Shown in pieces: positions 24,545-58,555 of a stretch of 64,000 nucleotides of DNA; within the stretch, counting starts at the first letter, position 1, and each line of letters begins with the position of its first letter. Location: NCBI GenBank assembly GCA_002238605.1, contig MPMR01000015.1:1-64000 (forward strand), written 5' to 3'. Under the pieces are notes generated by a model. The model made no database searches. It was not told the origin of the DNA and was given only the letters and a program-made list of their open reading frames with translations. This stretch comes from BD2-11 clade cluster bacterium bin43. Its GTDB lineage: Bacteria > Gemmatimonadota > Gemmatimonadetes > Longimicrobiales > Gaopeijiaceae. Position numbers and translations under genes: made by a program.

Positions 24545-25311
24545 CTGCATCCTGCCCTTGGGCATCCCCTGCCTGAGGGACCGGGTTGCGCAGACGTCGG
24601 CAATGCTGGTGCCGTCGCCGATCTTCGAGGCGGACCTGGAGCCGGAGCAGTACGGATACCGGCCGGGACCAGGGAGCCCCGATCTCGCCGCTGTTGAGCA
24701 ACATCTACATGCGGCGGTTCATCCTTGGCTGGAAGGCGCTGGGTCATGCCCGGCGCTTCAGTGCGGAGATCGTGAACTACGCGGACGACTTCTGTGTGCT
24801 CGGAAAGGCACCGGCGGCGGAGATGCTGGCGGCGGTCAACCGGCTCATGGAACGACTGAAGCTGCCGGTCAACGCACAGAAGACCCGATGCCTCCGATGC
24901 CCCGAGGAGCCGATCGAGTTCCTTGGATACCGCATCGGCTGGAACTATCGCCCGACGGACGGAAGCCGGTACATCGGCACCCGGCCCAGCAAGGCGAGCA
25001 TTCAAAGCATACGCCGCAGGATCAGGGCGCAAACGGAGCCACGTTACGAGGGCTGTCCAGCAGAGGAGGTCGTAGGGCGTCTCAATCGGATGCTGTCCGG
25101 ATGGGCAAACTACTTCACACTCGGCCAGGTCAGTCCGGCCTACGCGGCTGTGGATGCGTACGCGGCCCTGCGGCTGCGACAGTGGTTCTGCCGGAAGCAC
25201 AAGGTGAAATCAGGAAGATACGTGCGATTTTCCCACCGATGGCTGTGGGAGGAATGCGGCCTCACGCGCCTTGCGCTTACGACACGACACCTTCCGTGGG
25301 CGAAGGCATGA
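24545..25311 (+). pseudogene. ltrA: Group II intron reverse transcriptase/maturase, internally deleted
   Basis: The first part (24545-24662) has the RT start LPLGIPCLRDRVAQTSAML and FEADLEPEQYGYRPG. The sequence then jumps frame to QGAPISPLLSNIYMRRFILG, skipping about 100 residues of fingers and palm. YADDF, the polymerase active site, is present near 24780, and FLGYRIGWNY follows. The maturase (X) domain is present: RRRIRAQTEP, LNRMLSGWANYFTLGQ and WLWEECGLTRL to the stop at 25311. The deletion removes the first catalytic aspartate region, so it is not active as it stands. Confidence 0.85.
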
Positions 25312-25321
25312 TCCCGACTGA

Positions 25322-25354
25322 GAGCCGGATGCGGGAGATCCGCACGTCCGGTTC
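25322..25354 (+). ncRNA. Group II intron domain V
   Basis: A 33-nt hairpin. Its 5' arm GAGCCGGATGCGGGAG pairs with the 3' arm CGCACGTCCGGTTC in the arrangement of class C introns. It lies 10 bp after the RT stop, the expected position. The intron 3' end should be about 30-40 nt further on. The 5' intron RNA was not located. Confidence 0.85.
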
Positions 25355-25735
25355 GATGAGCGGGGGCTGGAAACGTGACTACGGGAGCCGGTCTGCGGCC
25401 CGGAGCGAAAGCGACGGAATAGCCACCGGACCCTACGGTCGGCGCGCCAGCCCTCGACTCCACCGGGATTTTCGCCTCGGGCGATCCGCCGATGAGCTTC
25501 CGGCGGCAGCTCTCTCAGGTCGCGCTCATGTTTCCAACACCCTGCCGAGGCTCTGCCCACAAATCAAGACGCGGATTGGCGTTACCGGCCATGCAAAACT
25601 TCACAGATGTGGCCGTCGAAATCTGCACACTTCCGGGCCCGAGGAGCGGAAGCGGTAGGGGGTTGGATCCGAGGTTGGCGGGTGTTGCGGGACGGGCTGG
25701 GCAATCTTGCGTCTCCATTGAACGGAGGAGGCGCA

Positions 25736-30072: not shown

Positions 30073-30238
30073 TCATGCGGTACGGCGAGGCACGCCGGAA
30101 CCGGGGGCCACTGGCCCCGAAACGCACGCGGAGACCGAAGCTGCCGAAGCCTCTTGGCTTTGGGGGCCGGTCGCGGAGCCGTGAATCGCGGTCGCCCCCA
30201 GTTGGTGGACGCGAATGCCGGAATCGTCACCGTTAAAA
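30073..30238 (+). ncRNA. TnpB 3'-region RNA-like element, copy a
   Basis: Starts with the coding end of a TnpB (RYGEARRNRGP) and carries two hairpins: GGGGCC-ACT-GGCCCC at 30104-30118 and CCGAAGCC-TCTT-GGCTTTGG at 30144-30163. In copies b, c and d the same stems are kept with different bases. The region corresponds to where the guide RNA scaffold of TnpB lies in known families. No complete TnpB gene precedes it. Confidence 0.5.
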
Positions 30239-30336
30239 GCCCCCTCACGGGTACGGGGTCCCTCGTCGAAGCGCGATTCCGCGGTAATGCGAAGGCGGAA
30301 GGGGTTTGAGGCGGGGTTGGGGGTGCCACGGGTTGA

Positions 30337-31632
30337 GTGACGGAACGAACGAGGGTGCGTAGTGCCGTGACGGATGCCTCCGCAAGCAGGACGACGGGCA
30401 CGAAGCCCGCGATCCGCCATGTCGGCATTCGGACGCGTCTTTATCCGAACGCGACGCAGGCGCATGCGATGGAGGCGTGTGCCGAAGCTCTCCGCAACCT
30501 CTGGAATCTTCTGCTCGGCCACTGCATCCGGCACCACGAGGAGCATGGCAGGGCCATGACCCCGAAAGAGCGGGAGGCGTTCGCGCGCCAGTGGAACCAG
30601 GCCACGGGACACACCTATCCGGCGAACTCCGTCTACAGGATCGCGCGCGAAGTGGGAGATGCCTACCGGAACTGGCACCGGGGGCGCGAGGCGGGGCGCG
30701 ACATCGGGCTCCCGGCATTCAGGAGGCGTGGGAACCCCCGGGGCCTCTACATACACAACGAGAGCCTGCGCTTCGACGGCACCCGCGTTCGTCTGCCGAA
30801 GTTCGGCTGGATGCGCTGGCGCGGCGGCAGCCTGCCTGCCGGTCGCCTGCCGGGCCCCAAGAGGCGTGGGACGCGCGGTCTGCTGTCCGGCCGCCTCTGG
30901 CGGGACGCCGGGGAGCGCTGGATGCTCTCGTGTGCGTTCGAGTGCGAGCCGGTAGACGCTGTCGCGCCGGCGACGGACGCGGTTGGCGTGGCCTTGGGCA
31001 CCAGCGACCTCGCGACCGTCTGCGACTCGCGGGGACGAATCACCGTTGTCCGTTCGGAGAAGTGGCTGCGCCGTGCGGAGAAACGTCTCAAACGGCTCCA
31101 AAGGTCCGTTGCGCGCTGCAAGCGGGGCAGCAATCGACGCGCGAAGGCGAAGCGCAGGCTGGCGAACCTGCACCGCGCGATCCGAAACCAGCGACTCGAC
31201 AGGATCCACAAGGCCACGACGACGATCATCAGGATGGCCGGGCAGATCACAATCGAGGCACTGCCGATCCGCGAGATGATGGGCGATCCGCGCCTGGCGA
31301 AGGCTCTGGCAGACTCCGGTCTGGGCGAGTTTCTCCGCCAGATCAGGTACAAGGCGGAGTGGCACGGGCGGACGGTGACGGAAGCCAGCCTGTCGTTTGC
31401 TGGCGCGCAGGTATGCTCGACCTGCGGACACGAGAACGAGGACGGGCAGGGCCTCGAGCGCGAGACCTTCTCGTGCGCGAAATGCGGCTACGATACGGAT
31501 CGCGCCCTGAACGCGGCGCGGAACTTCCTGCGGTACGGCGAGGCGCGCCGGAACCGGGGGCCAGCGCCCCAAACGCACGGGGAGACCGAAGCTGCCGGAG
31601 CCTCGGCTCCGGGGCCGGTCGCTGAACCGTGA
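30337..31632 (+). CDS. TnpB-family protein lacking the first RuvC aspartate (predicted nuclease-dead)
   Basis: TnpB proteins are RNA-guided endonucleases of IS200/IS605 and IS607 elements. This 431-residue frame has the beta-barrel opening (RTRLYPNATQAHAMEAC), a core FGWMRWRGGSLPAGRLPG, the RuvC-II glutamate in ITIEALPI, the zinc finger CSTCGHENE and FSCAKCGYDTD, and the RuvC-III aspartate in TDRALNAARNFL. The RuvC-I motif, normally G-[IV]-D-L-G, reads VGVALG, with GCC replacing an aspartate codon. Everything else is open and complete. GTG 30337 is the upstream start; the conserved part starts about 25 residues later. It may be an exapted DNA-binding protein or simply a recently inactivated transposon gene. 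Confidence 0.8.
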   Translation: MTERTRVRSAVTDASASRTTGTKPAIRHVGIRTRLYPNATQAHAMEACAEALRNLWNLLLGHCIRHHEEHGRAMTPKEREAFARQWNQATGHTYPANSVYRIAREVGDAYRNWHRGREAGRDIGLPAFRRRGNPRGLYIHNESLRFDGTRVRLPKFGWMRWRGGSLPAGRLPGPKRRGTRGLLSGRLWRDAGERWMLSCAFECEPVDAVAPATDAVGVALGTSDLATVCDSRGRITVVRSEKWLRRAEKRLKRLQRSVARCKRGSNRRAKAKRRLANLHRAIRNQRLDRIHKATTTIIRMAGQITIEALPIREMMGDPRLAKALADSGLGEFLRQIRYKAEWHGRTVTEASLSFAGAQVCSTCGHENEDGQGLERETFSCAKCGYDTDRALNAARNFLRYGEARRNRGPAPQTHGETEAAGASAPGPVAEP

Positions 31633-31684
31633 ATCGCGCGTCGCCCTGGTCGGCGGACGCGAATGCCGGAATCGTGACTGCAAC
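31532..31684 (+). ncRNA. TnpB 3'-region RNA-like element, copy b
   Basis: Overlaps the 3' end of the TnpB gene. Hairpins are GGGGC-CAGC-GCCCC (31557-31570) and CCGGAGC-CTCG-GCTCCGG (31595-31612). It ends near GCCGGAATCGT, a terminus shared with copy a. In known systems the guide begins just past this point. Confidence 0.55.
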
Positions 31685-31710
31685 AACCCTTCACGAAAGC
31701 GCGGGTCACG

Positions 31711-31940
31711 CAGCGCATGCTCGACCTGCGGACACGAGAACGAGGACAGGCGGGCCTCGGAGCGCGAGACTTTCTCGTGCTCGAAATGTTGGCTACGATA
31801 CGGATCGCGCCATGAACGCGGCGCGGAACTTCTTGCGGTACGGCGAGGCGCGCCGGAGCCGGGACCTTGGCGTCCCGAACGCACGCGGAGACCGGGTTGC
31901 CGCGGGGGCTTCGGCTACCGTGGCGGTCGCTGAACCGTGA
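31711..31940 (+). pseudogene. TnpB C-terminal fragment (zinc finger and RuvC-III)
   Basis: CSTCGHENEDRRASERETFS and CSKCW are followed, after a frameshift near 31790, by GYDTDRAMNAARNFLRYGEA. It is the tail of a second TnpB placed directly after the first, 80 bp from its stop. No body of the gene is present. Confidence 0.7.
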
Positions 31941-31975
31941 ATCGCGATCACAGAGACCGGGTTATCCCCCGGGAC
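31834..31975 (+). ncRNA. TnpB 3'-region RNA-like element, copy c
   Basis: Hairpins are GGGAC-CTTGGC-GTCCC (31861-31876) and CCGCGGGGGC-TTCG-GCTACCGTGG (about 31900-31923, one mismatch). Both stems differ from copies a and b at paired positions but keep pairing. The 3' boundary is less certain than in copy b. Confidence 0.5.
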
Positions 31976-32215
31976 CGACCCGGCGACTGCCGGAATCGCT
32001 TTGCCGTTTACGCGGGGCCAGCCCCCCGGGGCGCCACCAGAATTCTGACCCCTTGACCGTCAGAAAACCGTGAGCGACCGGTCCCGGGCCGGAGCGTGCG
32101 GGCCAAAATCCATGCAAAACCGGGCTTACCGGGGTGGCACCGTTGTTGCTTCCAAAGCCCGAGGAGCGAGGTGCCATGTTTCCTCGCCGACCGCAACCCA
32201 CTCCCAGGAGGAATG

Positions 32216-35200
32216 ATGAACCGTTTTACCAAGTACGGGCTGGCGCTACTGCTGGCCGTCACCTTCACCGCCTGCGACGAGGGCGATCCACCGCCTGTGG
32301 AGCCCCCGCCGCCGCCGACACCCGTGGGGACCATCTCCGGGTCCGTCACGATCGAAGGGACAGCGGCCAGCGGCATCACCGCCACCCTGTCGTCCGGTGC
32401 GACCACCACGACGGGGTCGGGCGGCAACTTCGCCTTCTCGGGCGTGGAGGCCGGGACCTACACGGTCACCATCAGCGGCTACCCCGAGGATGCGACGTTC
32501 CGCGACGTGACGCAGTCCGCGACCATCGCGACGGATGGTCAGAACGTTCCACTCAACTTCGCCGGCGAATACGTCCGCACGTCCGCGGTGGTCGGCAACG
32601 TGGTTGTGGCCGACGCCATGATGAGCGGCGGCGACGGCCAGCCCGAGACGCTGTCCGGCGTGACGGTCACGCTGGGCGGCGAGCACGCCATGGGCGAGAT
32701 CGAGGAGACCGGCATGGACGGCGGCTTCGCCTTCACCGGGCTCCGCGCCGGCACCTACACGGTCACGATCTCGGACTTCCCCGAGGACGTCTCCTTCGAG
32801 ACGGTGAGCGTCGAGGTAGAGGTCGGGGTGAACAAGATCGGCGACGCCGACTTCACCGGCCACTTCATCCGCACCTCCGCGGTCGAGGGCGAGGTGATCG
32901 TCGACGACGAGGGGCGTGCCGGCGTGACGGTCACCCTGAGCGGCGGTCCGTCCGACGAGAACTTCACGAAGACGACCAACGCCGACGGCATGTACCTGTT
33001 CGAGGACCTGCGCCCCGGCGACTACACGGTCTCGATCTCCGACTACCCTGTGCGCGACTACGAGTTCGCGGCCACGTCGCAGGACGTGAGCGTGGACCTG
33101 GGCGAGACCGGCACGGTCGACTTCACGGGCATCCTGCTCCGCACCTCCGGCATCAGCGGCGGAGTGAGCGTCGACGGCGTGGGCCTCCGTGACATCGCGG
33201 TCACGTTGTCGGGCGCGGCCGACGACACCACCATGACCGACGCGGGCGGCCAGTACTCATTCACGGGCCTGGCGGCCGGCGACTACACGGTCACGATCGC
33301 GGTCGAGAGCAACGCCTACGTGTTCGACTCGATGAGCCAGGACGTGACGCTCGGCGATGACGATCCGGCGAAGGTGAGCTTCCTTGGCGCGCACGCGCGC
33401 ACCGCGAGCGTTGTCGGTCAGCTGTTCCTCGACGAGCTGGACAAGAACGGCGAGCAGGACGCAGGCGAGCACCCGCTCGCGCACGCCGGTATTCCGGTGA
33501 CGCTGGTGGGCCCGGGGGTCAATGAATTCACGCCGGGCGTGACGGGCGCGGATGGCAGGTTCGCGATCTCGAATCTGCGCGCCGGCACCTACCAGCTGAT
33601 CGTGGTGATCGAGGGCGATGCTGCAACGAAACTCGCGGCCGCCAGCGTCGCGTACGGCGGACCGACGCAGGGCTACACCCTCGATGTCGGGGTCGGCGAG
33701 CGCGAGGAGCAGGACATTCCGTTCGCCATCACGCACACGACGGTCAACTTCACCGTGTCGCTGAAGAACGGCGACGAGATGGGTGACGCGCTTCCCGGCG
33801 CCATGGTGACGCTTTCGTCGGGTGACAGCGAAATGACCGGCGACGACGGTTCCGTGGCGATCAGGGTCGCGCGCGCCGGCGTCGCGGGGAACATGGTGAC
33901 GGCGAGCGTCACCCACGACGACTACGAGGACGGTGGCGGCGGCATGACCGAAGTCAGTTGGGATCCGCAGTCGTTCACGGCCGAGGCCTCCAACGCCAAC
34001 GACATCGTCAACCTGAACGTCAACGTGAACATCAGCGGCGCCACGGTCGACCGTGGCGACTACGGTGGCGGCGAAGCATTGGGCGGCTGGGCCATCGACG
34101 TCATGATGGGCGATGCCGAGGTCCCGGGCGCGCCGACGGCGCTGGGCGACGACGGCAGCGTGGCGTTCACGACCACCGTTGAATCGGTCCCGGCAAGCTT
34201 CAGCTTCGCGGTCGCCGACGACCAGGACGACGATCTGGACGGCGGCGAGATGTACGCGTCGTCCGGCGGCATGTACACGCACAACGGCCTTTCGCTGGCG
34301 GGCACGGCCATGGACGCCGACCCGATCGTGGTGACCTACACGACGCAGACGCTCAGGGTCTACGTGCACGAGGAGCTCGACCAGGTCCGCGGCTACACGG
34401 GCAACGTCGGGTACCGCGACGAAAGGAAATCCGGACTGGTCGATATCGAGGTCCGGCACATGAGCGGCACGCGCACCAGTCCGATCTCGAGCGACGCCTG
34501 GGACTCCAGGGCGAACTCGCGCGACAGCAGGGGCGTATACACCTTCGCCCATCTGCCCGCGGACATGGACATCGTGGTTCGGGCGGACCCCAGGGACGGT
34601 TACATGATCCTGGATGATCGCGAGCTCGACACCTACCGCGACATGGACGAGAACGGCGTGACGGGCGGTGCGTTCGGCGATATGGGCGGCTGGGGGCACA
34701 CGGTGACGCTCTGTCCGCTGATGGAGACCGAGCCCACCGGCCAGGACTTCGGCACGTGCGGCTCGTTCGCCGTCGTCAACACGTACGAAGTAACCGCGAA
34801 CGTGTCGAAGATGAGAGTCAGGGAGTCGGGCGCCGGGTTCAATTCGTCCGACCCCAGCAGCACGCATCAATCGGGGGTCACGGTCAGCCTGGAGCCGGTC
34901 CCGGGCAAGAATCTCGCGGGCGTCGGACGGTCCTGGACCACCGCGGGCGACGACGCGACGACAGCGATCGACGAGCGCACGGACCACAACTTCGGCACCA
35001 TGGCGGCCGGCACGTACGAGCTCGGTCTTCCTGACGGGTGGATGGGCATGGTCGGCGACATGGAGGCAGCCGACGCGCTCAGCCCCCTTGCAAGCGATGT
35101 CGACCTCGTCGTCACGCCGTCGACCGCGACCCTCTACGGCTTCGTTCGGAACGAGGAGAAATTCGGCCTCAAGGGCGTGACCGTGACCGTGAACGGCCAG

Positions 35201-37057
35201 ACGGACACGACCGACGAGTGGGGCCGCTACACCGTGTCCGGCATCCCCAACATGAGGCGGCAGCTCTTCGTGCGTACCGCGAGGGAGGGATATGTGGAGA
35301 CCGAGTCGGACTCCACCAACAACCCCGCCTACGACGAAGACCACGAAGACTACAAATCCAACCTCACCCCCATCCCTGCGTTCGCCGCGAACGCCGTGAA
35401 CCGATACGACATTGACCTCCGTGGCGCGAACAACACCGTCACGATCACCGGCAGGGTCACGGAAAGCGGCACCGGCACAGGGATCAAGAGTGTGCGGATC
35501 AAGGTGGGCGGCAACGATCCGCTCAACGGTGATCCGACTTTGTCCGGCTCGTCAAAGAACGGGCTCTTCACGGAAGACGACGGCACCTACATCGCGGTTG
35601 TCCAAGCCCAGCCATTCGATGCCCCAACCGTCAACGTGAGTGCGAGCAGGACCGGCTGGCACTTCCTGCCCGAGGAGTTCCCCGTCCCCGCCATCCCCGG
35701 GTCGAGCCCGACCGCCAACTTCGAAGGCCGCCGGGCCATCGAGATTGTTGGCAGGGTGAACGCTCCGGGCGGCGGGCCCATGAGCGATGTTGTGGTCACG
35801 GCGTACAGTGACCGGGCTCATACAACCAGGGTAGCCGGGTCGGCGTCCCAAGCGACCGCGCTAACCACGGAGACCGGGACTTTCAGCGTCAAAGTGCCCT
35901 ACCTCAGCGGCGCCGTCTTCCTCAAAGCCGAGCCTCGGAAATTTGGCACCAGCACCCGCGCTCCCAACTACAACTATCAGGCTGGCACTAACTACCAGAA
36001 GCTGCGGGACGCGGAGGACTATGTCTGGTTCGATGCCCCGGATGACAGACCCGACGGTCGGATCGCCGTCATCCCCGGCCAGACGTTACAGTTCGGCGTG
36101 TTCACGGGGAACAGCGTCCAGCCCCGAATCACGGACGTTGAGCGGGTGGAGGTCCCGGGCCCGGCCGCCGTTGGCGACCTCGTCAGTGGAGAACCCACGA
36201 GCATGATCGAGGTGACGTGGAAGTACGAGACCAGGAGTGTCTACGATGGTGCAGGCAGCGCCGCCGCCGCGTACTCCGCCTCGAATACGCCTGGGGAAGC
36301 CACCTTTGCAACCAAGAGCGGTATCAACCCAGCCTTTGCTGCTCCTACGGGCGGCATCACCGAGCCGCCCGCGTACAATTTCGGCACGGCCGCGACCCCG
36401 GCCACCGCCCGCGCCGCGGCGGACAACGGTACCGCCATCACGTCCACGCGGAAGACCACGTACGACATTCCAACGGGCGACGAGGACGACTACGGCGAAA
36501 TCGAGATTCGGATCGGAAACCCCGTGATAGATGCGGCTGGAACGCCGCGGGCCGCCACCGTAGCCTTCGATGTTGCAAGGCTTGCCGCCGTGGAATCGGG
36601 TGTCACGGACCTCGATGTGGTACGCAAGACCAAGGTCGAAGGCAATACAGAAAGCGACACTATCACAGCTACCTGGGAAGGAAAGGGTAGCCCGGCGTTG
36701 GAGCACCGAATCGCCCTGTATGCCGAGGTCAGCACCGGTTGGGCATGGATCATCTTCCCCACGGACCCGCTTCCGGTCCTCGGAACAACAGCAACAGTCC
36801 AAGGATCCGTATCGAGGGAGACTGACCGAAGCTCCACCGACTACGAGCAATGGAGCATGGCAAAATTGCCCCTCCACGCGTCGACAATCGACGCCGGATC
36901 CTGGCGTTACGCCGCTGACGAGACCGCGCTCACCAACAACGTCACCCTGGATCAGCTGAGGGCAGCGACCCGCCTTCGCGTCGACACCAGGGTGGACGGG
37001 GCAGCGGGCGAGTGGAAGACGGGCACCGAGGCAGTCATTCCACCCTCCGGCAGCTAA
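32216..37057 (+). CDS. Very large surface lipoprotein with carboxypeptidase-regulatory-like beta-sandwich repeats
   Basis: A 1,613-residue protein with a lipoprotein signal peptide (MNRFTKYGLALLLAVTFTAC) and a proline-rich spacer. About five consecutive units of 90-100 residues follow, each with a V-x-G opening and a GxYTFxGLxAGxYTVTI centre (for example FAFTGLRAGTYTVTISDFPE). They end in an RTSAV connector. These are CarboxypepD_reg/Cna-B-like folds. Later parts have similar but more diverged modules (TATLYGFVRNEEKFGLKGVT; NNTVTITGRVTESGTGTGIK). AGGAGG at 32206-32211 favours the second of two adjacent ATG codons. It probably forms long rods on the outer membrane for adhesion or glycan binding. 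The gene has no frameshifts and ends just before a terminator. Confidence 0.8.
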   Translation: MNRFTKYGLALLLAVTFTACDEGDPPPVEPPPPPTPVGTISGSVTIEGTAASGITATLSSGATTTTGSGGNFAFSGVEAGTYTVTISGYPEDATFRDVTQSATIATDGQNVPLNFAGEYVRTSAVVGNVVVADAMMSGGDGQPETLSGVTVTLGGEHAMGEIEETGMDGGFAFTGLRAGTYTVTISDFPEDVSFETVSVEVEVGVNKIGDADFTGHFIRTSAVEGEVIVDDEGRAGVTVTLSGGPSDENFTKTTNADGMYLFEDLRPGDYTVSISDYPVRDYEFAATSQDVSVDLGETGTVDFTGILLRTSGISGGVSVDGVGLRDIAVTLSGAADDTTMTDAGGQYSFTGLAAGDYTVTIAVESNAYVFDSMSQDVTLGDDDPAKVSFLGAHARTASVVGQLFLDELDKNGEQDAGEHPLAHAGIPVTLVGPGVNEFTPGVTGADGRFAISNLRAGTYQLIVVIEGDAATKLAAASVAYGGPTQGYTLDVGVGEREEQDIPFAITHTTVNFTVSLKNGDEMGDALPGAMVTLSSGDSEMTGDDGSVAIRVARAGVAGNMVTASVTHDDYEDGGGGMTEVSWDPQSFTAEASNANDIVNLNVNVNISGATVDRGDYGGGEALGGWAIDVMMGDAEVPGAPTALGDDGSVAFTTTVESVPASFSFAVADDQDDDLDGGEMYASSGGMYTHNGLSLAGTAMDADPIVVTYTTQTLRVYVHEELDQVRGYTGNVGYRDERKSGLVDIEVRHMSGTRTSPISSDAWDSRANSRDSRGVYTFAHLPADMDIVVRADPRDGYMILDDRELDTYRDMDENGVTGGAFGDMGGWGHTVTLCPLMETEPTGQDFGTCGSFAVVNTYEVTANVSKMRVRESGAGFNSSDPSSTHQSGVTVSLEPVPGKNLAGVGRSWTTAGDDATTAIDERTDHNFGTMAAGTYELGLPDGWMGMVGDMEAADALSPLASDVDLVVTPSTATLYGFVRNEEKFGLKGVTVTVNGQTDTTDEWGRYTVSGIPNMRRQLFVRTAREGYVETESDSTNNPAYDEDHEDYKSNLTPIPAFAANAVNRYDIDLRGANNTVTITGRVTESGTGTGIKSVRIKVGGNDPLNGDPTLSGSSKNGLFTEDDGTYIAVVQAQPFDAPTVNVSASRTGWHFLPEEFPVPAIPGSSPTANFEGRRAIEIVGRVNAPGGGPMSDVVVTAYSDRAHTTRVAGSASQATALTTETGTFSVKVPYLSGAVFLKAEPRKFGTSTRAPNYNYQAGTNYQKLRDAEDYVWFDAPDDRPDGRIAVIPGQTLQFGVFTGNSVQPRITDVERVEVPGPAAVGDLVSGEPTSMIEVTWKYETRSVYDGAGSAAAAYSASNTPGEATFATKSGINPAFAAPTGGITEPPAYNFGTAATPATARAAADNGTAITSTRKTTYDIPTGDEDDYGEIEIRIGNPVIDAAGTPRAATVAFDVARLAAVESGVTDLDVVRKTKVEGNTESDTITATWEGKGSPALEHRIALYAEVSTGWAWIIFPTDPLPVLGTTATVQGSVSRETDRSSTDYEQWSMAKLPLHASTIDAGSWRYAADETALTNNVTLDQLRAATRLRVDTRVDGAAGEWKTGTEAVIPPSGS

Positions 37058-37130: not shown

Positions 37131-37447
37131 TCCGTGATGACCGGGAGGAATTGGGACTGGGTGTGAGACAGTCCACGGGTGTTCCTCCCGTACGCCATGG
37201 TCGTCGAAGTCAACACGGCGGCCGATGTCACCCACGGAACGTGACACCGAAGATGGCGCCAACTCACTCGATGTCTACCTGGGCGGCAATGACGAACGGT
37301 GGAAACGTTGCAGCGAGTCGTTCTGCAAGTGTCGAACAGCTGGCCAGGCAGACGTATTCAACAATGACGACAACAACCCGGTCCCGGTCGCTCCGCCGAA
37401 CGATGCCCGCGTCGGTCGCGGAGCCGGGGCCGAATCATCCCGCGGGC

Positions 37448-40400
37448 ATGGAGCGAGAGAGCGACGGCACCCCGAACGACCGCACACGGATTCGCGTTCC
37501 GATGTTGGCGATCTGGGCGGTCGCGGCGTGGGCGTCGGGGTGCGGCGACGGCGCCACGGGCCCTCCGCCCGAGACGCGTCGCGTGGCCAGCGTGACGGTC
37601 ACGCCCGCGGCCGCGACGCTCACGGAGCCGGTCGCGACCGTTCGACTGAGCGCGCGCGTGCTTGACGGAAACGGGCGCGCGATGCCCGGGGTGGCGGTGA
37701 TCTGGACGAGCGTGCTCCCCGAGGTCGCGACGGTCGGCGGGTCGGGGCTGGTGGCGGCGGCCGGCAACGGGACGACCACGATCGCGGCGACGGTCGGCGC
37801 GGTCGCGGGCACGGCGACGGTGACGGTGGCGGTGGAGCATGGGGACCGGGCGGCGCTGGCGGCGCTCCACGCGGCGACGGACGGGCCGAACTGGGCCGAC
37901 GACGAGAACTGGCTGGGCGACGGGCCGCTTGGGGAGTGGCGCGGAGTGGAGACGGACGCCTTCGGCCAGGTCGCCCGCCTGGACCTTGGCGGCCGCCGGG
38001 ACGGGGAGACCGGGGAGTGGACGCCGCACGGCCTGCGAGGTCCGATCCCGCCGGAGCTGGGGCGTCTCTCGGGCCTGACATCGCTCAATCTGAGCGCCAA
38101 CGCCCTGGAGGGTCCGATCCCGCCGGAGCTGGGGGATCTCTCGGGCCTGAGGTCGCTCAATCTGAGCGCCAACGCCCTGGAGGGTCCGATCCCGCCGGAG
38201 CTGGGGCACCTGGCGCGCTTGACGTCATTGAGCCTGCGCGCCAACGCGCTCGAGGGCCCGATCCCGCCGGAACTGGGCGCCCTCGGCGGTCTGGAGGGGC
38301 TGTGGCTCGACGGCAACCGGCTCGAGGGTCCGATCCCGCCGGAGCTGGGGCGCCTCGCGCACCTGAGGGGTCTGTCCCTGAACGGTAACGCGCTCGACGG
38401 TCCGGTCCCTCCGGAGCTGGGCGGTCTCGGGCGCCTGGAGTTCCTGTACCTCGACGGGAACGCGCTGGCGGGTGCGCTCCCGCAAAGCCTCCTGAGGATC
38501 GGCGGGCTGGTGCGGTTCCGTTTCGAGCGGAACGACGGTCTCTGCGCGCCGGGCACGCCCGGGTTCCTCGCCTGGCTGGACGGGATCGGGGAGCTCGGGA
38601 GAGGCCCGTTCTGCGACGAGAAGGACCGGGCGGCGCTGGCCGCGCTGCACGCGGCGGCGGGCGGCGAGGGCTGGACCGACTCGGGAGGTTGGCTGGGCGG
38701 CGCGGCGCTCGCGGACTGGCACGGAGTCGAGACCGACTCACTGGGCCGCGTCGCGACCCTCGATCTGGCCGGCAACGGACTCGCGGGGCGGCTCCCGGCG
38801 GGCCTGGGCGACCTGGCGGCGATGACGGCGCTGCGCGTAGGCGACAACGCGCTGTCCGGACGGCTGCCGCGCACCCTGCTCGACCTGTCGCTACGCGAGC
38901 TGGACTACGCCGGCACGGAGCTGTGCGCCCCGGCGGACGAGGCGTTCCGGGCGTGGCTGGACGCTATCGCCGTGCTGCGGGGCAACGGGGCGGAGTGCGC
39001 GTCCGCCACGGACCGGGAGATCCTCGAGATGTTCCACGCCGCGACGGTCGGGCGCGACTGGATCGACCCGGGGAACTGGCTCACCGACGCGCCGCTCGGG
39101 GAGTGGCGCGGGGTCGAGGTGGACGAGGCGGGGCGGGTGGTCGGGCTGTGGCTCCGGGACAACGGGCTGGCGGGCCGGCTGCCGCCCGAACTCGGCGACC
39201 TGGCGCACCTGGAATACCTGCGACTCAGCGACAACGGCCTCACAGGCACCATCCCGCGGGAGTTCGCCAGCCTGTCCAGTCTCACGCACCTGGCGCTCGA
39301 CGGCAACGGCCTCTCCGGCCGGCTGCCGCCCGAACTCGGCACCTTTTCGGCCCTTGAGGAACTGCGCGTCGAGAACAACGACCTGTCGGGCCCGGTGCCG
39401 CCCGAACTCGGCGGCCTCGCGAGCCTGCGCGGGCTGGGGCTCACGGGCAACCCCCGGCTGGCGGGCCCGCTGCCCGCCGAACTGACGTCGCTCGGCCGGC
39501 TCGAGCGGCTGCTGGCCGGCGGCACGGGGCTGTGCGCGCCCGCGGACCCCGCCTTCGCGGCCTGGCTCGAGGGGATTCCCGCGCGTCGCGTCGCGCCCTG
39601 CGCCGAAGAGGAGGCGCCGGCGGCCTACTTGGTGCAGGCGGTGCAGTCGCGCGCGTTCCCGGTCCCGCTGGTCGCGGGCAGGCCGGCGCTGCTGCGCGTG
39701 TTCCCGACGGCGACGCGGGCCGCGGGCGCCGGCGCGCCCGCGGTCCTGGCCCGGTTCTTCGTCGACGGCCGGGAGGCGCACGTGGCGCGCATTCCCCGCG
39801 CCTCCGGGCGGGTCCCGGAGCGGATCGACGAGGGCTCCCTCGCCACGTCGGCCAACGCGCGGATTCCGGGGAACGTGGTGCGGCCCGGCCTCGAGATGGT
39901 GATCGAGATCGACCCGGACCGGACGCTGGATCCCGCGCTGGGGATCGCGAGGCGGATCCCCGCGACCGGGCGGCTGGCGGTCGACGTCCGGACCGTGCGG
40001 CCCCTCGGGCTGACGGTCGTTCCGTTCCTGTGGGCAGAGGCTCCGGACTCCTCGATCCTGGACGTCGTGGGAGAGCTGGCCGCAGACCCGGAGGGCCACG
40101 TGCTGCTCGCGGACGCGCGCGCGCTGCTCCCGGTGGGCGCGCTCGAGGTGACGGCGCACGAACCCGTCCTGAGCTCGAGCAACGACGCCCGCCGCCTGCT
40201 CGGGGAGACGGAGGCGATCCGCGTGATGGAGGGCGGGGGCGGCCACTACCTGGGCACGATGGCGGGTCCGGCGACGGGACCCTCCGGAGCGGCGTTCGTC
40301 CCCGGCCGGTCGAGCTTCTCGGTTCCCCGGCCGGGCACCATCGCACACGAACTTGGCCACAACATGGGTCTCCGCCACGCGCCATGCGGCGGCGCGGCCG

Positions 40401-41080
40401 ACCCCGACCCGTCGTTCCCCCACCCGGACGGATCGGCCGGGGCGTGGGGCTACGACTTCGCGCGCGGCGAGCTGGTGCGCCCGGAGACCCCGGACCTCAT
40501 GTCGTACTGCGGCCCGCCCGACGGGATCAGCGACTACCACTTCGCCAACGCTTTCCGCCACCGGCTGTTCGATGAGCGGGCGCCGCCGGAGCCGTCCGCC
40601 GCCCCGGCGAGGTCGCTCCTCCTGTGGGGTGGGGCCGAGGCCGACGGCGCGCCGTTCCTGAACCCGGTCTTCGTCGTCGACGCGCCGCCGGCGCTGCCGG
40701 ACTCGGCCGGCGCGTACACGCTGACCGGCCGGACCGACGGTGGGACCGAACTTTTCTCGCTCCGCTTCGCGATGCCCCGGACGGCCGACGGCGCCGGCGG
40801 CTCCGGCTTCGCGTTCGCTCTTCCCGTGGAGCCCGGCTGGGCGGACGAACTCGCCGGCATCACCCTCGCCGGCCCCGGCGGAACGTTCGCTCTGAGCGAC
40901 GACAGCGACGTCCCGACGGCCATCCTGCGCGACCCGGCTACCGGCCGGGTGCGGGGCATCCTGCGCGAGGTGCCGCTCCCGGCCCGGGCGGCGATGGCCC
41001 CGGCGGAACGGTCCGCAGGGCCGGAACTCGAGATGCTGTTCAGCCGCGGGCTGCCGGACGCGGCGGCGTGGCGGCGATGA
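37448..41080 (+). CDS. Leucine-rich-repeat lipoprotein with C-terminal zinc metalloprotease domain
   Basis: A 1,210-residue protein. A lipobox (LAIWAVAAWASGC) is followed by a bacterial Ig-like (Big_2) domain (SVTVTPAAATLTEPVATVRL). Three leucine-rich-repeat blocks come next. Each opens with the same cap: a DRxALxALH helix, a tryptophan, then GEWRGVE-x-D and GRV. LRR units follow, such as GPIPPELGRLSGLTSLNLSA. Near residue 967 the motif HELGHNMGLRH gives a complete HExxHxxGxxH zinc site of the metzincin type, with a following DLMSYCG (Met-turn). Start at ATG 37448 is uncertain; ATG 37502 keeps the signal peptide. Likely a cell-surface, target-recognising protease. LRR plus metzincin in one chain is unusual to me. 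Confidence 0.8.
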   Translation: MERESDGTPNDRTRIRVPMLAIWAVAAWASGCGDGATGPPPETRRVASVTVTPAAATLTEPVATVRLSARVLDGNGRAMPGVAVIWTSVLPEVATVGGSGLVAAAGNGTTTIAATVGAVAGTATVTVAVEHGDRAALAALHAATDGPNWADDENWLGDGPLGEWRGVETDAFGQVARLDLGGRRDGETGEWTPHGLRGPIPPELGRLSGLTSLNLSANALEGPIPPELGDLSGLRSLNLSANALEGPIPPELGHLARLTSLSLRANALEGPIPPELGALGGLEGLWLDGNRLEGPIPPELGRLAHLRGLSLNGNALDGPVPPELGGLGRLEFLYLDGNALAGALPQSLLRIGGLVRFRFERNDGLCAPGTPGFLAWLDGIGELGRGPFCDEKDRAALAALHAAAGGEGWTDSGGWLGGAALADWHGVETDSLGRVATLDLAGNGLAGRLPAGLGDLAAMTALRVGDNALSGRLPRTLLDLSLRELDYAGTELCAPADEAFRAWLDAIAVLRGNGAECASATDREILEMFHAATVGRDWIDPGNWLTDAPLGEWRGVEVDEAGRVVGLWLRDNGLAGRLPPELGDLAHLEYLRLSDNGLTGTIPREFASLSSLTHLALDGNGLSGRLPPELGTFSALEELRVENNDLSGPVPPELGGLASLRGLGLTGNPRLAGPLPAELTSLGRLERLLAGGTGLCAPADPAFAAWLEGIPARRVAPCAEEEAPAAYLVQAVQSRAFPVPLVAGRPALLRVFPTATRAAGAGAPAVLARFFVDGREAHVARIPRASGRVPERIDEGSLATSANARIPGNVVRPGLEMVIEIDPDRTLDPALGIARRIPATGRLAVDVRTVRPLGLTVVPFLWAEAPDSSILDVVGELAADPEGHVLLADARALLPVGALEVTAHEPVLSSSNDARRLLGETEAIRVMEGGGGHYLGTMAGPATGPSGAAFVPGRSSFSVPRPGTIAHELGHNMGLRHAPCGGAADPDPSFPHPDGSAGAWGYDFARGELVRPETPDLMSYCGPPDGISDYHFANAFRHRLFDERAPPEPSAAPARSLLLWGGAEADGAPFLNPVFVVDAPPALPDSAGAYTLTGRTDGGTELFSLRFAMPRTADGAGGSGFAFALPVEPGWADELAGITLAGPGGTFALSDDSDVPTAILRDPATGRVRGILREVPLPARAAMAPAERSAGPELEMLFSRGLPDAAAWRR

Positions 41081-41174: not shown

Positions 41175-44100
41175 ATGATTCGGAACAGACTGGGCCGACC
41201 GGCCCGCTTTCTCATGATCGCCACCGCGGCGGCGTGGTGGATTCCCTGCGTTCCCGCGGAGGCCGCGGGCATGCCGTTGGCTGAGGACCCCCCTTCGGTG
41301 CCGCTGAACCTGAAGGCGCTCGGCACCACCTACACCACCATCTTCCTCTCCTGGACCAAGCCGACTTCGACCGGCGGAAGCGCGATCGCCAGCTACGTAA
41401 TCGAGGTGTCGAAACTCGGCACCGACTGGAATTCGCTGACGACCACGAGAGGAGATCGGATCTTTTACCAGCACGGGGGTCTCACGGCGGACACGACCCT
41501 CCACTACCGCGTCAAGGCGAGGAACGCCGACGGTGACACGGGGGACTGGTCGAACGAGGCGACCGCCACCACGCTGAAGGGCGTGCCACCGGGCGTGCCC
41601 GGCGACCTGACGGCGGCGGCCGCCGGGCCCACCGTCATCGCCCTGGACTGGGACGCGCCGTCCTCGGACGGCGGGAGCGCGATCACGGGCTACCGCATCG
41701 AGTGGTCCGCGAACGGTCGCGCCCCCTGGCGCTTTCTGGTGACCACGAGTCAGACCCATTACCGGCACACGGGTCTCACGGTGGGCACCACCCGCCACTA
41801 CCGGGTCAGGGCGGAGAGCGCCGGCGGCAATGGGCAATGGGCGGGTTCGGTGAGCGCCACCACGGCGGCCGGCGTCCCCGGGGTGCCCCGCGGCCTGACG
41901 GCGAGCGCCGTCGGAGCCTCGGCGATCGACCTCGAATGGACGGCGCCGGCGCCGGTCGCCGGCGGCGCGCAGGTCACGGGCTACCACGTCGAGTGGTCCG
42001 CGAACGGCGTCACCAACTGGACGCCTCTGGTGAGCAACCTCCGCGACACCCGCCACCGGGACGCCGGTCTCGACCCCGGCACCACCCGGTACTACAGAGT
42101 CGCGGCGGTCAACCAGCATGGACGGGGGGCCTGGACGACGGACCGGGTGAGCGCCACGACGAGCCGTCTGCCCGGCAGGCCGACGCGCCTCACGGCCGAG
42201 GCCCGGGGGCCGTCGACGATCGAACTGGACTGGAACGCCCCGTCTTCGGGAGGAGGCTCGATCACCGGCTATCGGATCGAATGGTCGAGCACCGGGACCG
42301 GCGGATGGAGGTTCGAGGCCAACACCAGATCCGGCACCACCTACACCGACACCGGCCTCAGCCCGGGCACCACGCGCCACTACCGCGTCGCCGCGATCAA
42401 CTCGGCGGGCACGGGACCCTGGTCAGCGGTCGCCAGCGCCACCACCGAAGTCACCGTTCCGGGCGCGCCCACGAGCCTCAGGGCGACTGCGCCCGTTGTG
42501 GGGGGGAGCGACCGCATCCTCCTCACCTGGAGGGCCCCGGCCTCGAACGGAGGGAGCCCGATCACCGGCTACCGCATCCAGTGGCGTTCCACCGGTACCT
42601 CGCGCTGGATCCCGCTCGTACCCGGCCCCACCGGCACGGCCACCACCTACACGCACACCGGTCTCGACCCCAACACGACCCGGTTCTATCGGGTGGCCGC
42701 GCTCAACGGCGAAGGGCAGGGAAACTACTCGAACGCGGTCCCAGGCACCACCCGCGCCGCACGGCCCGGCCAGCCCCGGAACCCGCGCGCGCGGCCGGCC
42801 GGACCGACCAGCATCACGCTCGCCTGGGAGGAACCGACCAGCGACGGCGGGGAGCGGATCACCGGCTACACCATTCAGTTCCGCGGCTCCAGCGACGGAA
42901 ACTGGACCACGATCCCTCGCAACACGGGTCCGCGGGAGACCACCTTCACGCACACGGGCCTCCAGCCGGCGACCGCCTACCGGTACCGGGTGGCGGCGAT
43001 CAACCGCTTGGGACGCGGCCAGTGGTCGTTGGAGGTGGGCAACAGCACGTACGCCCAGGCTCCCGGAGCGCCGGTCGGGCTGACGGCCCGGGTGGTGGGC
43101 ACCTCGCGCATCGACCTGTCGTGGACCGCGCCCCGAAGCACCGGCGGCGCCCCGATCTTTGGCTACCGGATCGAAGCCTCCGACGACGGGGGCAGCACTT
43201 GGCGGACGATCGTCCGCAACACCAACTCGACGGGGACGACGTACCCCGACGTGGACCTCCAGCCCGCGACCACGCGGCACTACCGCGTCGCCGCGCGCAA
43301 CACCGCGGGGACCGGGCCGTTCTCGAACATCGCGCGCGCGACGACCGAAGCCACCGTGCCGGGCTCGCCCCGAAGGCTCGACGCGGAGGCCGACGGCACC
43401 TCGCGGATCGAGCTTTCCTGGCTGGCGCCCACCAGAGACGGGGGCGCGCGCATCACCGGCTACCGCATCGAGGTGTCCGAAGACGGCGGCGTCCGCTGGG
43501 ATGACCTGGTGGCCGACACGCGCAACACGCGCACGACCCACGTGCACAGGGGGCTGGAGCCGGCCACCAGGCGCCACTACCGCGTCTCGGCGATCAACCG
43601 GATCGGCGAGGGCCGGGCGTCGCGGGCGGTGAGCGCCATTACCGACGCGACCGTGCCCGACGCGCCCACCGGGCTGGTCGCCACCGATGTCTCGCCCACC
43701 CGGATCGACCTGTTCTGGGCCGCGCCCGCCTACGACGGCGGCGCCCCCGTCACCGGCTACCGCGTCGAGGTGTCCGAGGACGGCGCCGCCTGGACCGACT
43801 TGGTGGCCAACACCGGATCCAGGGCCACCACGTACCCGCACACCGGCCTGCTGCCGGGGAGCAGGCGGCACTACCGCGTCTCGGCGATCAACCTGGCCGG
43901 CACCGGTGCGGCGTCGGTGAGCGCATCGGCGGAAACGGACGACCCCGTCGGGCGCGCGGGGCGGCTGAACACGCGCGTGCTGCCGCACGTGGCGGCCGCG
44001 ATGACCTCGAGCACCGTCTCGGCGATCGCCCGCCGCGTCGACGCGGTGGCCAACGGGACGGGCATGCAGCGGCGCGTGGAGACGAACGGGCTCTCGTCGA

Positions 44101-45344
44101 TGGCCGCGAGCCTGTCCGCGCCGGACGCGGGGGGTCTCGGCCTCGCGCAGGGCGACCAGGCCGGCCTGGTCGCCCTCTTCGGCGGCACCTCGTTTACGAT
44201 GCCGTTCGGCGACTCCGACGCGCAGCAGCAGTTGGCCACGGGCATGCAACTGGGCAGCTGGGGCGCGGGCGAGTACCACCACCTCGGAGAACCCGGCGCG
44301 AGCGCGCTCGACTGGAAGGGCAACATGGTGAGCGGCCACGTCGGCGTGGACGCGCGCATCGGGCCGGACATCCTGGCGGGTGTCGCGGGCTCGTACTCCT
44401 CGGGCAGCTTCGACTTCACCGACAAGACCGGCGCCAGCCCGGTGAGGGGCACCTACGGCACCACCATGACCAGCGTGCACCCCTACATGGCGTGGTTCTC
44501 CGGCGCGGGCGGCGCCTCGGTGTGGGGCTCGGCCGGACTCGGCCGGGGCGACATCGAGGTCGACGACGAACGCGAAGGGCTCCGCACCAGCCCCGCCAGC
44601 ACCTTGACGGGAGCGGGGGGCGCCAGCTACCGGCTGCTCACGCGCGGCGCGGGCGGCGTCAGCCTCAAGGCCGAGGGCTGGGGTGGTCAGATCAAGGTCG
44701 AAGGCGCCGAGCAGATTGAGGCGGTCACGCTCCAGATGCAGCGCGCGAAGCTGGCCCTGGAGTTGACGCAGGGCTTCAGCACCAACAACGGGAACGAGAT
44801 GGCGTTCGTGCTCGAGGGCGGGATGCGCTACGACGACGGTGACGGCGTGAACGGCACCAGCGCGGAGGTCGGCGGCGGGCTCCGCTACACGAACCCCGGG
44901 CTGGGACTGACCGCGGAGGGCCGCGGCCGGTTCGTGATCTCGGCGCGCAACGGTTACGAGGAATGGGGCCTTGGCGGCATGCTCATGTTCGATCCTGCGG
45001 CCCGTGGCCAGGGACTCTCGCTCCGGGTGGCGCCTTCGTACGGCGACCACGCGAGCGGGGTGAACCAGTTGTGGGAGCGCGGGGTCTCTGACGCGGTGGG
45101 CGGCCACGGCCTGGGAATGGGTCCCAACGTGGACGGCGAGGTCGCATACGGCATCGCCGGCTTCCAGGGGACGCCCTACAGCGGCTTCTACCTGGGCCAG
45201 GGTGGCACGCGGGCCTTCAGCAGCGGCGTGCGCTACGACATGGGCTCGGGAGTCGGGCTGCGCCTCGAGGGCACGCGACGCGAGAGCGGGCTCGCGGGAG
45301 CGCAGCACTCGGTGGGGATCCGCGGAAGGATCAAGCTCCGCTAA
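41175..45344 (+). CDS. Nine-FnIII-domain protein with C-terminal autotransporter beta-barrel
   Basis: A 1,389-residue protein. A signal peptide (MIRNRLGRPARFLMIATAAA to PAEAAG) is followed by nine fibronectin type III domains of about 100 residues. Each has an opening P-x-x-P-x-x-L, a W-x-x-P-x-x-x-GG turn, ITGYRIE and TRHYRVAA. From about residue 960 an autotransporter-type barrel follows (GAGEYHHLGEP, LAGVAGSYSSGSFDF, LALELTQGFSTNNGNEMAFV, closing GIRGRIKLR). AAGGAGG lies nine bases before ATG 41175. The passenger is expected to be exposed on the cell surface and could bind protein or glycan of a partner organism. Adjacent repeats are very alike, suggesting recent amplification. Confidence 0.85.
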   Translation: MIRNRLGRPARFLMIATAAAWWIPCVPAEAAGMPLAEDPPSVPLNLKALGTTYTTIFLSWTKPTSTGGSAIASYVIEVSKLGTDWNSLTTTRGDRIFYQHGGLTADTTLHYRVKARNADGDTGDWSNEATATTLKGVPPGVPGDLTAAAAGPTVIALDWDAPSSDGGSAITGYRIEWSANGRAPWRFLVTTSQTHYRHTGLTVGTTRHYRVRAESAGGNGQWAGSVSATTAAGVPGVPRGLTASAVGASAIDLEWTAPAPVAGGAQVTGYHVEWSANGVTNWTPLVSNLRDTRHRDAGLDPGTTRYYRVAAVNQHGRGAWTTDRVSATTSRLPGRPTRLTAEARGPSTIELDWNAPSSGGGSITGYRIEWSSTGTGGWRFEANTRSGTTYTDTGLSPGTTRHYRVAAINSAGTGPWSAVASATTEVTVPGAPTSLRATAPVVGGSDRILLTWRAPASNGGSPITGYRIQWRSTGTSRWIPLVPGPTGTATTYTHTGLDPNTTRFYRVAALNGEGQGNYSNAVPGTTRAARPGQPRNPRARPAGPTSITLAWEEPTSDGGERITGYTIQFRGSSDGNWTTIPRNTGPRETTFTHTGLQPATAYRYRVAAINRLGRGQWSLEVGNSTYAQAPGAPVGLTARVVGTSRIDLSWTAPRSTGGAPIFGYRIEASDDGGSTWRTIVRNTNSTGTTYPDVDLQPATTRHYRVAARNTAGTGPFSNIARATTEATVPGSPRRLDAEADGTSRIELSWLAPTRDGGARITGYRIEVSEDGGVRWDDLVADTRNTRTTHVHRGLEPATRRHYRVSAINRIGEGRASRAVSAITDATVPDAPTGLVATDVSPTRIDLFWAAPAYDGGAPVTGYRVEVSEDGAAWTDLVANTGSRATTYPHTGLLPGSRRHYRVSAINLAGTGAASVSASAETDDPVGRAGRLNTRVLPHVAAAMTSSTVSAIARRVDAVANGTGMQRRVETNGLSSMAASLSAPDAGGLGLAQGDQAGLVALFGGTSFTMPFGDSDAQQQLATGMQLGSWGAGEYHHLGEPGASALDWKGNMVSGHVGVDARIGPDILAGVAGSYSSGSFDFTDKTGASPVRGTYGTTMTSVHPYMAWFSGAGGASVWGSAGLGRGDIEVDDEREGLRTSPASTLTGAGGASYRLLTRGAGGVSLKAEGWGGQIKVEGAEQIEAVTLQMQRAKLALELTQGFSTNNGNEMAFVLEGGMRYDDGDGVNGTSAEVGGGLRYTNPGLGLTAEGRGRFVISARNGYEEWGLGGMLMFDPAARGQGLSLRVAPSYGDHASGVNQLWERGVSDAVGGHGLGMGPNVDGEVAYGIAGFQGTPYSGFYLGQGGTRAFSSGVRYDMGSGVGLRLEGTRRESGLAGAQHSVGIRGRIKLR

Positions 45345-46183: not shown

Positions 46184-47314
46184 ATGCCCCTGATGTTCAA
46201 GCGCCTCTACATCGACAACTACAAGTGCTTCGTGAACTTCGAGTTACATCTTCACGAGTTCACGCTGCTCGTCGGGCGCAACGGTGCCGGTAAGACCGCC
46301 GTCCTAGACGTGGTCTACGCCCTACGCCAACTACTCGAGGGCACCTCTAGGATAACTGACAGGGACATCTTCCCTCCGTCGTCGCTGACCAGATGGCAGA
46401 AGCGACCAATTCAAGTAGTCGAGGCCGACCTGGAATTGGATGACATCCAATTCACCTACCGCCTAGAGGTAGAACACCATCGCGTGGAGCGCCGGGCCCG
46501 CATCAAGGATGAGGCCCTTTCAGGGAATGGTGGTCCGCTTTTTTCGTTCAAGAGTGGCGATGTGCGGCTCTACCGTGACGATCACTCGGAGGGGCCTACG
46601 TTCAAGAGTGATTGGAGGGAGTCGGCACTCGCGCGGGTGCAGCCCGTAAAAGACAACATTCACCTTACGCGGTTCTTGGATTTCATGCGCAGCGTGTTGG
46701 TTTGCGGCCTGAATCCACCGACCTTTGCAACAGAAGCGGCTAGCGAAGACCAGATCTTGGCGAGGGATGGACGCAACTTCGTCGAGTGGTACCGTCACTT
46801 CCTTCAGGAGCGGCAGGATCTCAGCCTCTCATATACTCAAGCCATGCAGGATGTCTTGCCTGGGCTACGTGGATTCCGCTTGGAGAAGGTCGGCATCGAC
46901 ACGAGAGCGCTAGTCGGCGTTTTTGGTGACGAAGGTGAGGCGTACCCGTATAAGTTCCATGAGTTGTCCGACGGCCAACGCGCACTGGCCGTGCTCTATG
47001 CATTGACCCACCTTACCACGGATCAACGACGAGCGGTCTTGATCGACGAGCCCGTCAATTTTGTGGAGCTCTCGGAAATTCAGCCGTGGCTGGTTGCTCT
47101 CACCGATGCTTGTGGGAGCACTTGCGGCCAGGCCTTGCTGTCTTCTCACCACCCTGAGGTTATCGACTACCTCGGTGCGGACCGGGGCATTCTACTTTCG
47201 CGCGATGGTACTGGACCGACAAGAGCGAAAGTTCTGGCCGAAGGGTTGAACCACCTTACTGAGGAGGGACCTCTGAGGCTTTCGCAGGTGATGGCCAGAG
47301 GATGGGAGCTGTGA
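46184..47314 (+). CDS. AAA-family ATPase of a two-gene defence-type module
   Basis: A 376-residue ABC/OLD-like (AAA_21) ATPase. Walker A is GRNGAGKTAVLD near residue 32, the signature ELSDGQRALAVLYAL near 263, Walker B AVLIDEPVNF near 284 and a switch histidine in LLSSHHPEVID. There is no large nuclease domain; that role probably lies in the next gene, whose ATG overlaps this stop (TGATG). Family parallels are RloA and the AriA ATPase of PARIS. Base composition looks less GC-rich than neighbours, suggesting transfer. The start may instead be ATG 46193. Confidence 0.8.
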   Translation: MPLMFKRLYIDNYKCFVNFELHLHEFTLLVGRNGAGKTAVLDVVYALRQLLEGTSRITDRDIFPPSSLTRWQKRPIQVVEADLELDDIQFTYRLEVEHHRVERRARIKDEALSGNGGPLFSFKSGDVRLYRDDHSEGPTFKSDWRESALARVQPVKDNIHLTRFLDFMRSVLVCGLNPPTFATEAASEDQILARDGRNFVEWYRHFLQERQDLSLSYTQAMQDVLPGLRGFRLEKVGIDTRALVGVFGDEGEAYPYKFHELSDGQRALAVLYALTHLTTDQRRAVLIDEPVNFVELSEIQPWLVALTDACGSTCGQALLSSHHPEVIDYLGADRGILLSRDGTGPTRAKVLAEGLNHLTEEGPLRLSQVMARGWEL

Positions 47315-47862: not shown

Positions 47863-48069
47863 ATCAGCGCGCGCTCCTGCGCGGAAGCGCGCAGTCTTCG
47901 CGCTTGCCGGGCCGCCTGCAGGAACGCCTTCATGACGTCTTCGGGTGTGTCAGGGATCGTCTCTGGTGGAGGGGTGTCCGACGGGTCGATCCGGCGTTTC
48001 CTATTCCCCACTAGAGCGTCCGAGTAGTGACTGTTCTATCGTGATCCAGTATCCTGCTTGTCCGACGAT

Positions 48070-48737: not shown

Positions 48738-48890
48738 GCAACCCGCGTCGCGTCCAGTCGGCCGGTGTCGAGTGCCCGCAGGCTCCCGTCCGAGCACTTC
48801 CCCCCGCACCGGGGCGCACACCCCTGAGGCCGCGGGCCGGAGGCACAGCATGCGATCCGCCGGCTCCGCGCGCCTTCCCCGAACGCTAGC

Positions 48891-48935
48891 AAGCCCCGGT
48901 CGACGGTCGGGTTCCCCTCCCGGCGACCGGGGCTT
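48891..48935. repeat. Perfect 12-bp inverted repeat inside the IS3 relic
   Basis: AAGCCCCGGTCG (48891-48902) and CGACCGGGGCTT (48924-48935) pair perfectly with a 21-nt loop. It may terminate transcription after the transposase. Confidence 0.6.
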
Positions 48936-58538: not shown

Positions 58539-58555
58539 CACGAAAGGACTCCCCC

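Follow-up and report, generated by a model that had tools for sequence, protein, structure and literature searches.

Nuclease-dead TnpB-like proteins and their scaffold RNAs in Gemmatimonadota: a probable TldR-like system linked to surface-protein genes

In this work, we analysed a 64,000-nucleotide stretch of DNA (the window) from BD2-11 clade cluster bacterium bin43, a member of the Gemmatimonadota (contig MPMR01000015.1, positions 1 to 64,000), which carries two tnpB-like genes, four copies of a structured RNA and a set of genes for large surface proteins. The two proteins almost certainly belong to a lineage with a dead nuclease and a functional scaffold RNA. We regard it as probable that they represent a system similar to the TnpB-like nuclease-dead repressors (TldRs), in which domestication in Gemmatimonadota left a TnpB of the IS200/IS605 type with its omegaRNA scaffold but without its nuclease. 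That the role is regulatory and concerns the surface genes is likewise more likely than not. We call the system TldR-like, rather than TldR, because the match is in anatomy, function being a matter of the guide target and repression.

Nuclease-dead proteins and the scaffold RNA

The first gene (30337-31632, + strand, with the start at 30337 or 30367) encodes a full-length TnpB-like protein, W_1, which matches the Pfam families OrfB_IS605, Cas12f1-like_TNB and HTH_OrfB. When aligned with canonical TnpBs, where RuvC-I reads GLDWG or GVDAG and RuvC-III reads DRDWNAA or DRDVNAA, W_1 has GVALG and DRALNAA, i.e., an aspartate-to-alanine change in each motif, and it retains the RuvC-II glutamate (IEALP) and the zinc finger. 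The second gene (49077-50099, + strand) encodes a truncated protein, W_2, characterized by alignments, AlphaFold and Foldseek: the RuvC-I aspartate is absent, and the segment after RuvC-II, the zinc finger and RuvC-III are gone. The AlphaFold model of W_2 shows a TnpB fold (pLDDT 80.5, with very low predicted confidence for the last 32 residues, which are encoded by the scaffold), and its top Foldseek match in the PDB is the ISDra2 TnpB (8h1j, E 1.2e-20). Pfam, profiles and structure place both proteins in the TnpB fold and sequence family, W_1 being above and W_2 below the NF040570 cut-off; the Asp-Glu-Asp RuvC triad of active IS200/IS605 TnpBs is not present in either. The original prediction, made from the letters of the window, had overlooked that these are no ordinary TnpBs, both proteins having lost their catalytic aspartates. 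Since the RuvC-I and RuvC-III aspartates are lost, the window proteins, judged by their sequences, cannot be normal RuvC nucleases, and the obvious mechanism would be binding, not cutting.

The same prediction had placed four copies of a two-hairpin RNA in TnpB 3′ regions, and both the copies and the named stems were found there. A covariance model (CM) located all four on the + strand with 82-87 bits, scores that are partly circular as the model was trained in part on the window copies, so that only matches outside the training set count as independent evidence. Copy 1 (30080-30226, CM match 30080-30188) is an orphan with no tnpB ahead. Copy 2 (31533-31674, CM match 31533-31636) overlaps the 3′ end of the W_1 gene. 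Copy 3 (31838-31998, CM match 31838-31944), also an orphan, lies upstream of the surface lipoprotein gene and is preceded by a decayed tnpB 3′ end (31695-31836, + strand), identified with tblastn by its resemblance to the tnpB 3′ part, with a reading frame broken by indels. Copy 4 (49989-50130, CM match 49989-50072) directly follows the truncation point of the W_2 gene, whose frame continues across it and ends at the stop codon 50097-50099. Every window copy begins with GTACGGCGAGG. The sequence downstream of copy 1, TCACCGTTAAAAGCC, is similar to TCACCGTTACAATCC downstream of the scaffold at locus L034, which encodes a protein 73% identical to W_1 with the same catalytic losses. One correction concerns the second hairpin, where stems do exist but two helices had been mixed: copy 4 is devoid of the inner variable hairpin, and GACCGG/CCGGTC there corresponds to the outer stem, which every copy has.

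To assess the covariation, we exchanged the 5′ and 3′ arms between homologues and compared the pairing of native and swapped arms. For hairpin 1, the native arms paired better overall/between subfamilies (14/20000), with no significance within subfamilies; for hairpin 2, they paired better both overall (2/20000) and within subfamilies (299/20000), and in the three copies that carry it together with L034 the native pairing was about the best among 24 arrangements. The proposed covariance model was built from 13 sequences rather than from the four copies and run over 29 sources, giving 33 matches. In their alignment, which is biased in favour of the structure by having been fitted to the model, four helices with 18 pairs are seen, two helices more than had been predicted; one of the four encloses another. 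As many as 96.9% of the pair cells are paired, compared to 33-43% in slid controls, and 11 of the 18 pairs show double-sided changes, a level reached in 0/500 shuffles. Some double changes stand in an ungapped conserved context (columns 5-21 and 10-18, G-C to C-G; columns 57-148, G-C to A-U). Compensatory change, put forward as strong evidence, is thus modest with four copies alone and becomes strong with 33 homologues. A column-pair scan of the whole alignment without a structure was dropped as uninformative, for the clade signal dominates it.

Independent support comes from untrained sequences: in distant tnpBs (L130, L131 and L132, 43-47 bits), the model places the scaffold precisely where the gene ends on its 3′ side, and it also matches the tnpB 3′ end of L217 (44 bits) and that of the canonical TnpB L068 (28.5 bits, E 2e-4). 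A search of the source genome for further copies revealed six scaffolds, four in the window, one on contig C38 and one on contig C60; of these six, window copies 1 and 3 are without a tnpB. The scaffold has no match in Rfam. Between members, divergence of the scaffold DNA is 0.7-13%, against a proportion of synonymous differences (pS) of 7-43% for the same pairs, and the DNA stays alike even where indels shift the frame through the scaffold (L045/L057 vs. L050; L035, L039, L040); the low divergence and the indifference to frame argue that it is kept as RNA rather than as a peptide. Taken together, the arm swaps, the covariation across 33 homologues and the out-of-training matches support the claim of a functional structured RNA, and on comparative sequence grounds we conclude that the covarying hairpins are real and are of the right-end element RNA (reRNA)/omegaRNA scaffold type found at tnpB 3′ ends. 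Among natural proteins of solved structure, ISDra2 TnpB with its reRNA (8h1j, 8exa, 8bf8) is the nearest in fold and profile, and it likewise has a scaffold RNA at the 3′ end of its gene. It differs in being active as a nuclease and in belonging to a transposon with TnpA, whereas the proteins studied here have lost the catalytic residues and no Y1 TnpA was found in their genus.

The dead lineage and its surface-gene partners

The loss of catalytic residues is a property of a whole lineage. The RuvC-I aspartate is replaced or absent in 15/15 dead-lineage proteins and kept in 7/7 canonical TnpBs, and the RuvC-III aspartate is replaced or absent in the same 15/15. The commoner form is the W_2 clade (about 28 loci across genus and family), where the zinc finger and RuvC-III are cleanly lost, the gene runs straight into the scaffold and frames are open almost throughout, a few members having stops near the 3′ end. 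Distant members (L062, L063, L117-L119) are likewise without the catalytic aspartates. These graded stages, with the aspartates lost and the zinc finger kept, and then a clean C-terminal loss, would make the path from nuclease to binder readable. The ratio of nonsynonymous to synonymous substitution (dN/dS) is mostly 0.22-0.36, about 0.3, with 0.26 for W_1 vs. L034; the outliers are one pair with 0.14 and two of the closest pairs, which have few changes, with 0.52-0.59. By these ratios, the dead TnpBs are under purifying selection.

Genomes of Candidatus Palauibacter and its relatives in the Gemmatimonadota carry 1-5 dead tnpBs each. Named matches fall in Candidatus Palauibacter, in other Gemmatimonadota metagenome-assembled genomes (MAGs), some of whose records are labelled Gammaproteobacteria, and in one Vicinamibacteria MAG; in a survey of the phylum, 22/395 genomes matched at the threshold used, a few of these with canonical or distant TnpBs. 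The Y1 transposase TnpA (PF01797) was found in 0/11 genus genomes with a positive control, IS607-type TnpA not having been searched for, and no relatives of the dead TnpBs were found in viral contigs. Separately, a locus from another family (L134, the same as L113; genome G209, contig C25) and L034 (genome G008, contig C10) are 97.6% identical over 4 kb including the surface gene c1, so that this cassette of c1 and dead tnpB was either recently transferred or reflects MAG contamination.

The usual neighbour of the dead TnpB is c1, which in the window (32213-37057, + strand) encodes a giant putative lipoprotein with CarboxypepD_reg/SpaA/SdrD-like repeats, as judged by Pfam and conserved neighbourhoods. 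It is followed by c6 (37403-41080, + strand), for a surface protein with leucine-rich repeats (LRR) and an M66-like part, and c5 (41175-45344, + strand), for a fibronectin type III (FN3) repeat protein, both assigned by Pfam and clusters; the window order is therefore tnpB, c1, c6, c5 and the second tnpB. At least one of c1, c5 and c6 lies within 3 kb in 25/30 dead loci vs. 0/8 canonical tnpB loci, and contig ends interrupt at least some of the five remaining dead loci. Among the distant forms, L130, L131 and L217 also adjoin c1, and L132 adjoins a homologue of c3. In the genus, c1 is usually divergent from a c3-tnpB pair followed by c2 and c4, where c3 has weak helix-turn-helix (HTH) matches, and c2 and c4, by inspection, look LuxR-type and histidine kinase-like, respectively. 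The tandem is found in 16 loci, with tnpB behind c3 and a 4 bp overlap in most. Upstream of the window c1, a sigma54-type −24/−12 promoter, TGGCAC-CGTTG-TTGC, was read in the sequence at 32135-32149 (+ strand), and the pattern TGGCAC-N5-TTGC is present upstream of c1 in 18/18 regions examined. A motif, TCAGAAAAC[AC]G, is conserved upstream of this promoter (e.g., in L042 and at window positions 32050-32070) and is a possible site for an enhancer-binding protein.

Given the linkage to surface genes, the data suggest that in these sponge-associated bacteria domesticated dead TnpBs act as RNA-based switches for the cell surface. The dead TnpB would bind the scaffold RNA from its own transcript, and perhaps also that of orphans like copies 1 and 3 of the window; by binding DNA or RNA, the complex may then regulate, and most likely repress, the surface-protein genes or paralogues of these. 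Through the orphans as guides in trans, one ribonucleoprotein might coordinate several surface loci. The fuller proposal that an independently domesticated dead TnpB family forms an RNA-guided switchboard for giant, multi-copy, sigma54-driven surface proteins, with the orphans as trans guides, is offered tentatively. That one protein could serve several RNAs had already been predicted: orphans do exist (copies 1 and 3, L216 and the second scaffold copy present in L052/L053), and the trans arrangement is a possibility. At L216 (genome G010), an orphan scaffold stands ahead of c1 without tnpB in the same place as copy 3. Because this counterpart is 80% identical to copy 3 over the scaffold and 76% over the downstream intergenic part, copy 3 is kept in a second species and is not clearly better conserved than its surroundings.

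The first report of TldRs is said to be that of Wiegand et al. in 2024. TldRs are natural RNA-guided transcription factors. According to PMC13418256, they are linked to partner genes, occur at multiple loci and use 6-nt guides; its clades are associated with fliC and csrA and act on flagellin. The present system resembles them in the TnpB fold with an inactivated RuvC, the adjoining guide-RNA scaffold that is kept, several loci per genome, a lasting tie to non-transposon genes for surface structures and the lack of a Y1 transposase partner (within the scope of the search given above). It differs in its hosts (Gemmatimonadota, other than the hosts in PMC13418256), in its partners (giant lipoprotein, FN3 and LRR genes with a sigma54-type promoter and an HTH regulator), in the clean removal of the zinc finger and RuvC-III in the main clade, in the orphan scaffolds and in target searches that gave nothing above chance. 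The lineage is not described in the literature searched, and a mention in Wiegand 2024 or Altae-Tran 2023 is possible. If the TldR-like reading is true, a deep lineage in another phylum would mean that TnpB became a regulator more than once, and cell-surface control would be a recurrent use of domesticated TnpB.

Guides, targets and alternative explanations

In the W_1 type, homology between copies stops at GCCGGAATCG. In the genus clade, conservation extends to GAATCAGGG, ahead of which stand a tandem GCGAAGGCCGGAA unit and what may be a compensating stem (CCCTG/CAGGG vs. TTTGAG/CTCAA). Judged by homology with the canonical L068, the guide could also start right after GAATCG. Exact matches of at least 11 nt between post-scaffold sequences and loci of the same genome comprised only chance-like matches and duplicate scaffolds; when up to 3 mismatches were allowed, CTGTAGYCGTCTGCGA and AGTTTGAGTTCGCCGAAGG occurred outside the scaffolds no more often than background; and when the regions upstream of c1 were scanned for seeds, the only k-mers in excess came from homologous GC-rich leaders. 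These target tests are blind to a 6-nt seed and depend on a guide boundary that is itself uncertain, and no boundary tried gave a target above chance. Three candidates were dropped as not above chance: ACGAAGGCCG of L035, immediately following the −12 box of that locus's c1; CACCGTT of window copy 1 in the c1 promoter; and CCGACTCAA/AGTTTGAGT at c1 start codons. As a side observation, L037 (2727-2900) and L061 (7687-7850) carry two to three CGAAGGCCGGAA units behind the scaffold, 12-22 nt apart, an arrangement that resembles a very small repeat-spacer array.

Several points weigh against a TldR-like system. The post-scaffold sequence is unconserved between orthologous loci (L042 vs. L058), unlike a maintained long guide; matches to a locus's own c1 promoter are no better than those to the promoters of other loci (longest 7.50 vs. 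7.63, P ~0.83); and the conserved 3′ segments are without a second exact genomic match where searched. Moreover, the surface-gene families are multi-copy, some c1 copies have no nearby tnpB in the assemblies, the monophyly of the dead lineage is supported in the tree at 84/83 only, and the genomes are apparently all MAGs.

The post-scaffold variation between orthologues, with L058/L059 running straight into the end of the convergent c2, and the lack of targets in our searches would also fit a regulator whose guide has no role any more: one that would bind nothing but its scaffold, process its own mRNA at the 3′ end, and either autoregulate the c3-tnpB operon or act together with c3; processing of its own mRNA by TnpB is known (PMC10278001). 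Known TldR guides, however, can be as short as 6 nt (PMC13418256), below the reach of our target tests, and orphan scaffolds far from tnpB would be useless for autoregulation. We hold guide-independent regulation to be unlikely, yet the likeliest of the alternatives.

Far less probable is that the loci are decaying, functionless IS200/IS605 remnants, i.e., pseudogenes and solo right ends. The frame-broken remnant by copy 3, the orphans and the stops near the 3′ end in a few members are of the kind expected from decay, but the dN/dS of about 0.3, the open frames kept in about 20 genomes, the covariation, and the derived deletions and neighbourhood that different species share speak against it. 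The ends of IS200/IS605 elements are hairpins bound by TnpA, and the hairpins might accordingly be DNA structures, right ends for a Y1 transposase, rather than RNA; this is very improbable given 0/11 genus genomes with such a transposase, a four-helix fold with one helix enclosing another inside the tnpB 3′ region, and the same scaffold at a canonical tnpB 3′ end. It is just as improbable that the proteins, instead of regulating surface genes, interfere with phages or plasmids in the manner of nuclease-inactive type V effectors, which bind but do not cut: the effector resembles Cas12u4/Cas12f profiles (PADLOC), which reflects TnpB superfamily membership only, and phage- and conjugation-type genes lie near 49077, but no relative was found in viral contigs and the linkage is to surface, not defence, genes.

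Other loci in the window and the source genome

The second dead tnpB is surrounded by mobile-element genes (46184-64000, translations judged by inspection), including an IS3-like transposase fragment near 48121, a terminase-like open reading frame at 50196 (minus strand), a LexA/CI-like repressor at 51753 (minus strand) and conjugation-type genes from 53395. At 24586-25436 of the window, a group II intron reverse transcriptase is represented by its C-terminal part, followed by a match to the intron RNA (RF00029, 25320-25436), the only Rfam match over the window.

No CRISPR repeats were noticed at the scaffold and window loci as read, where no dedicated search was made. Elsewhere in the source genome, on contig C38 (about 244951-246500), locus L065 encodes a 380-aa TnpB/Cas12-like protein with an intact catalytic triad (7952-9091 of the locus), which has a relative on contig C28 (L001/L072). 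Behind this gene, at 9245-9501, a CRISPR-like repeat of 36 nt (GTCGCAACGGCGAGATTACCGGGTCGCGAGTGCCAC) occurs four times with a spacing of 69-73 nt, and the locus is possibly a minimal type V-U CRISPR locus.
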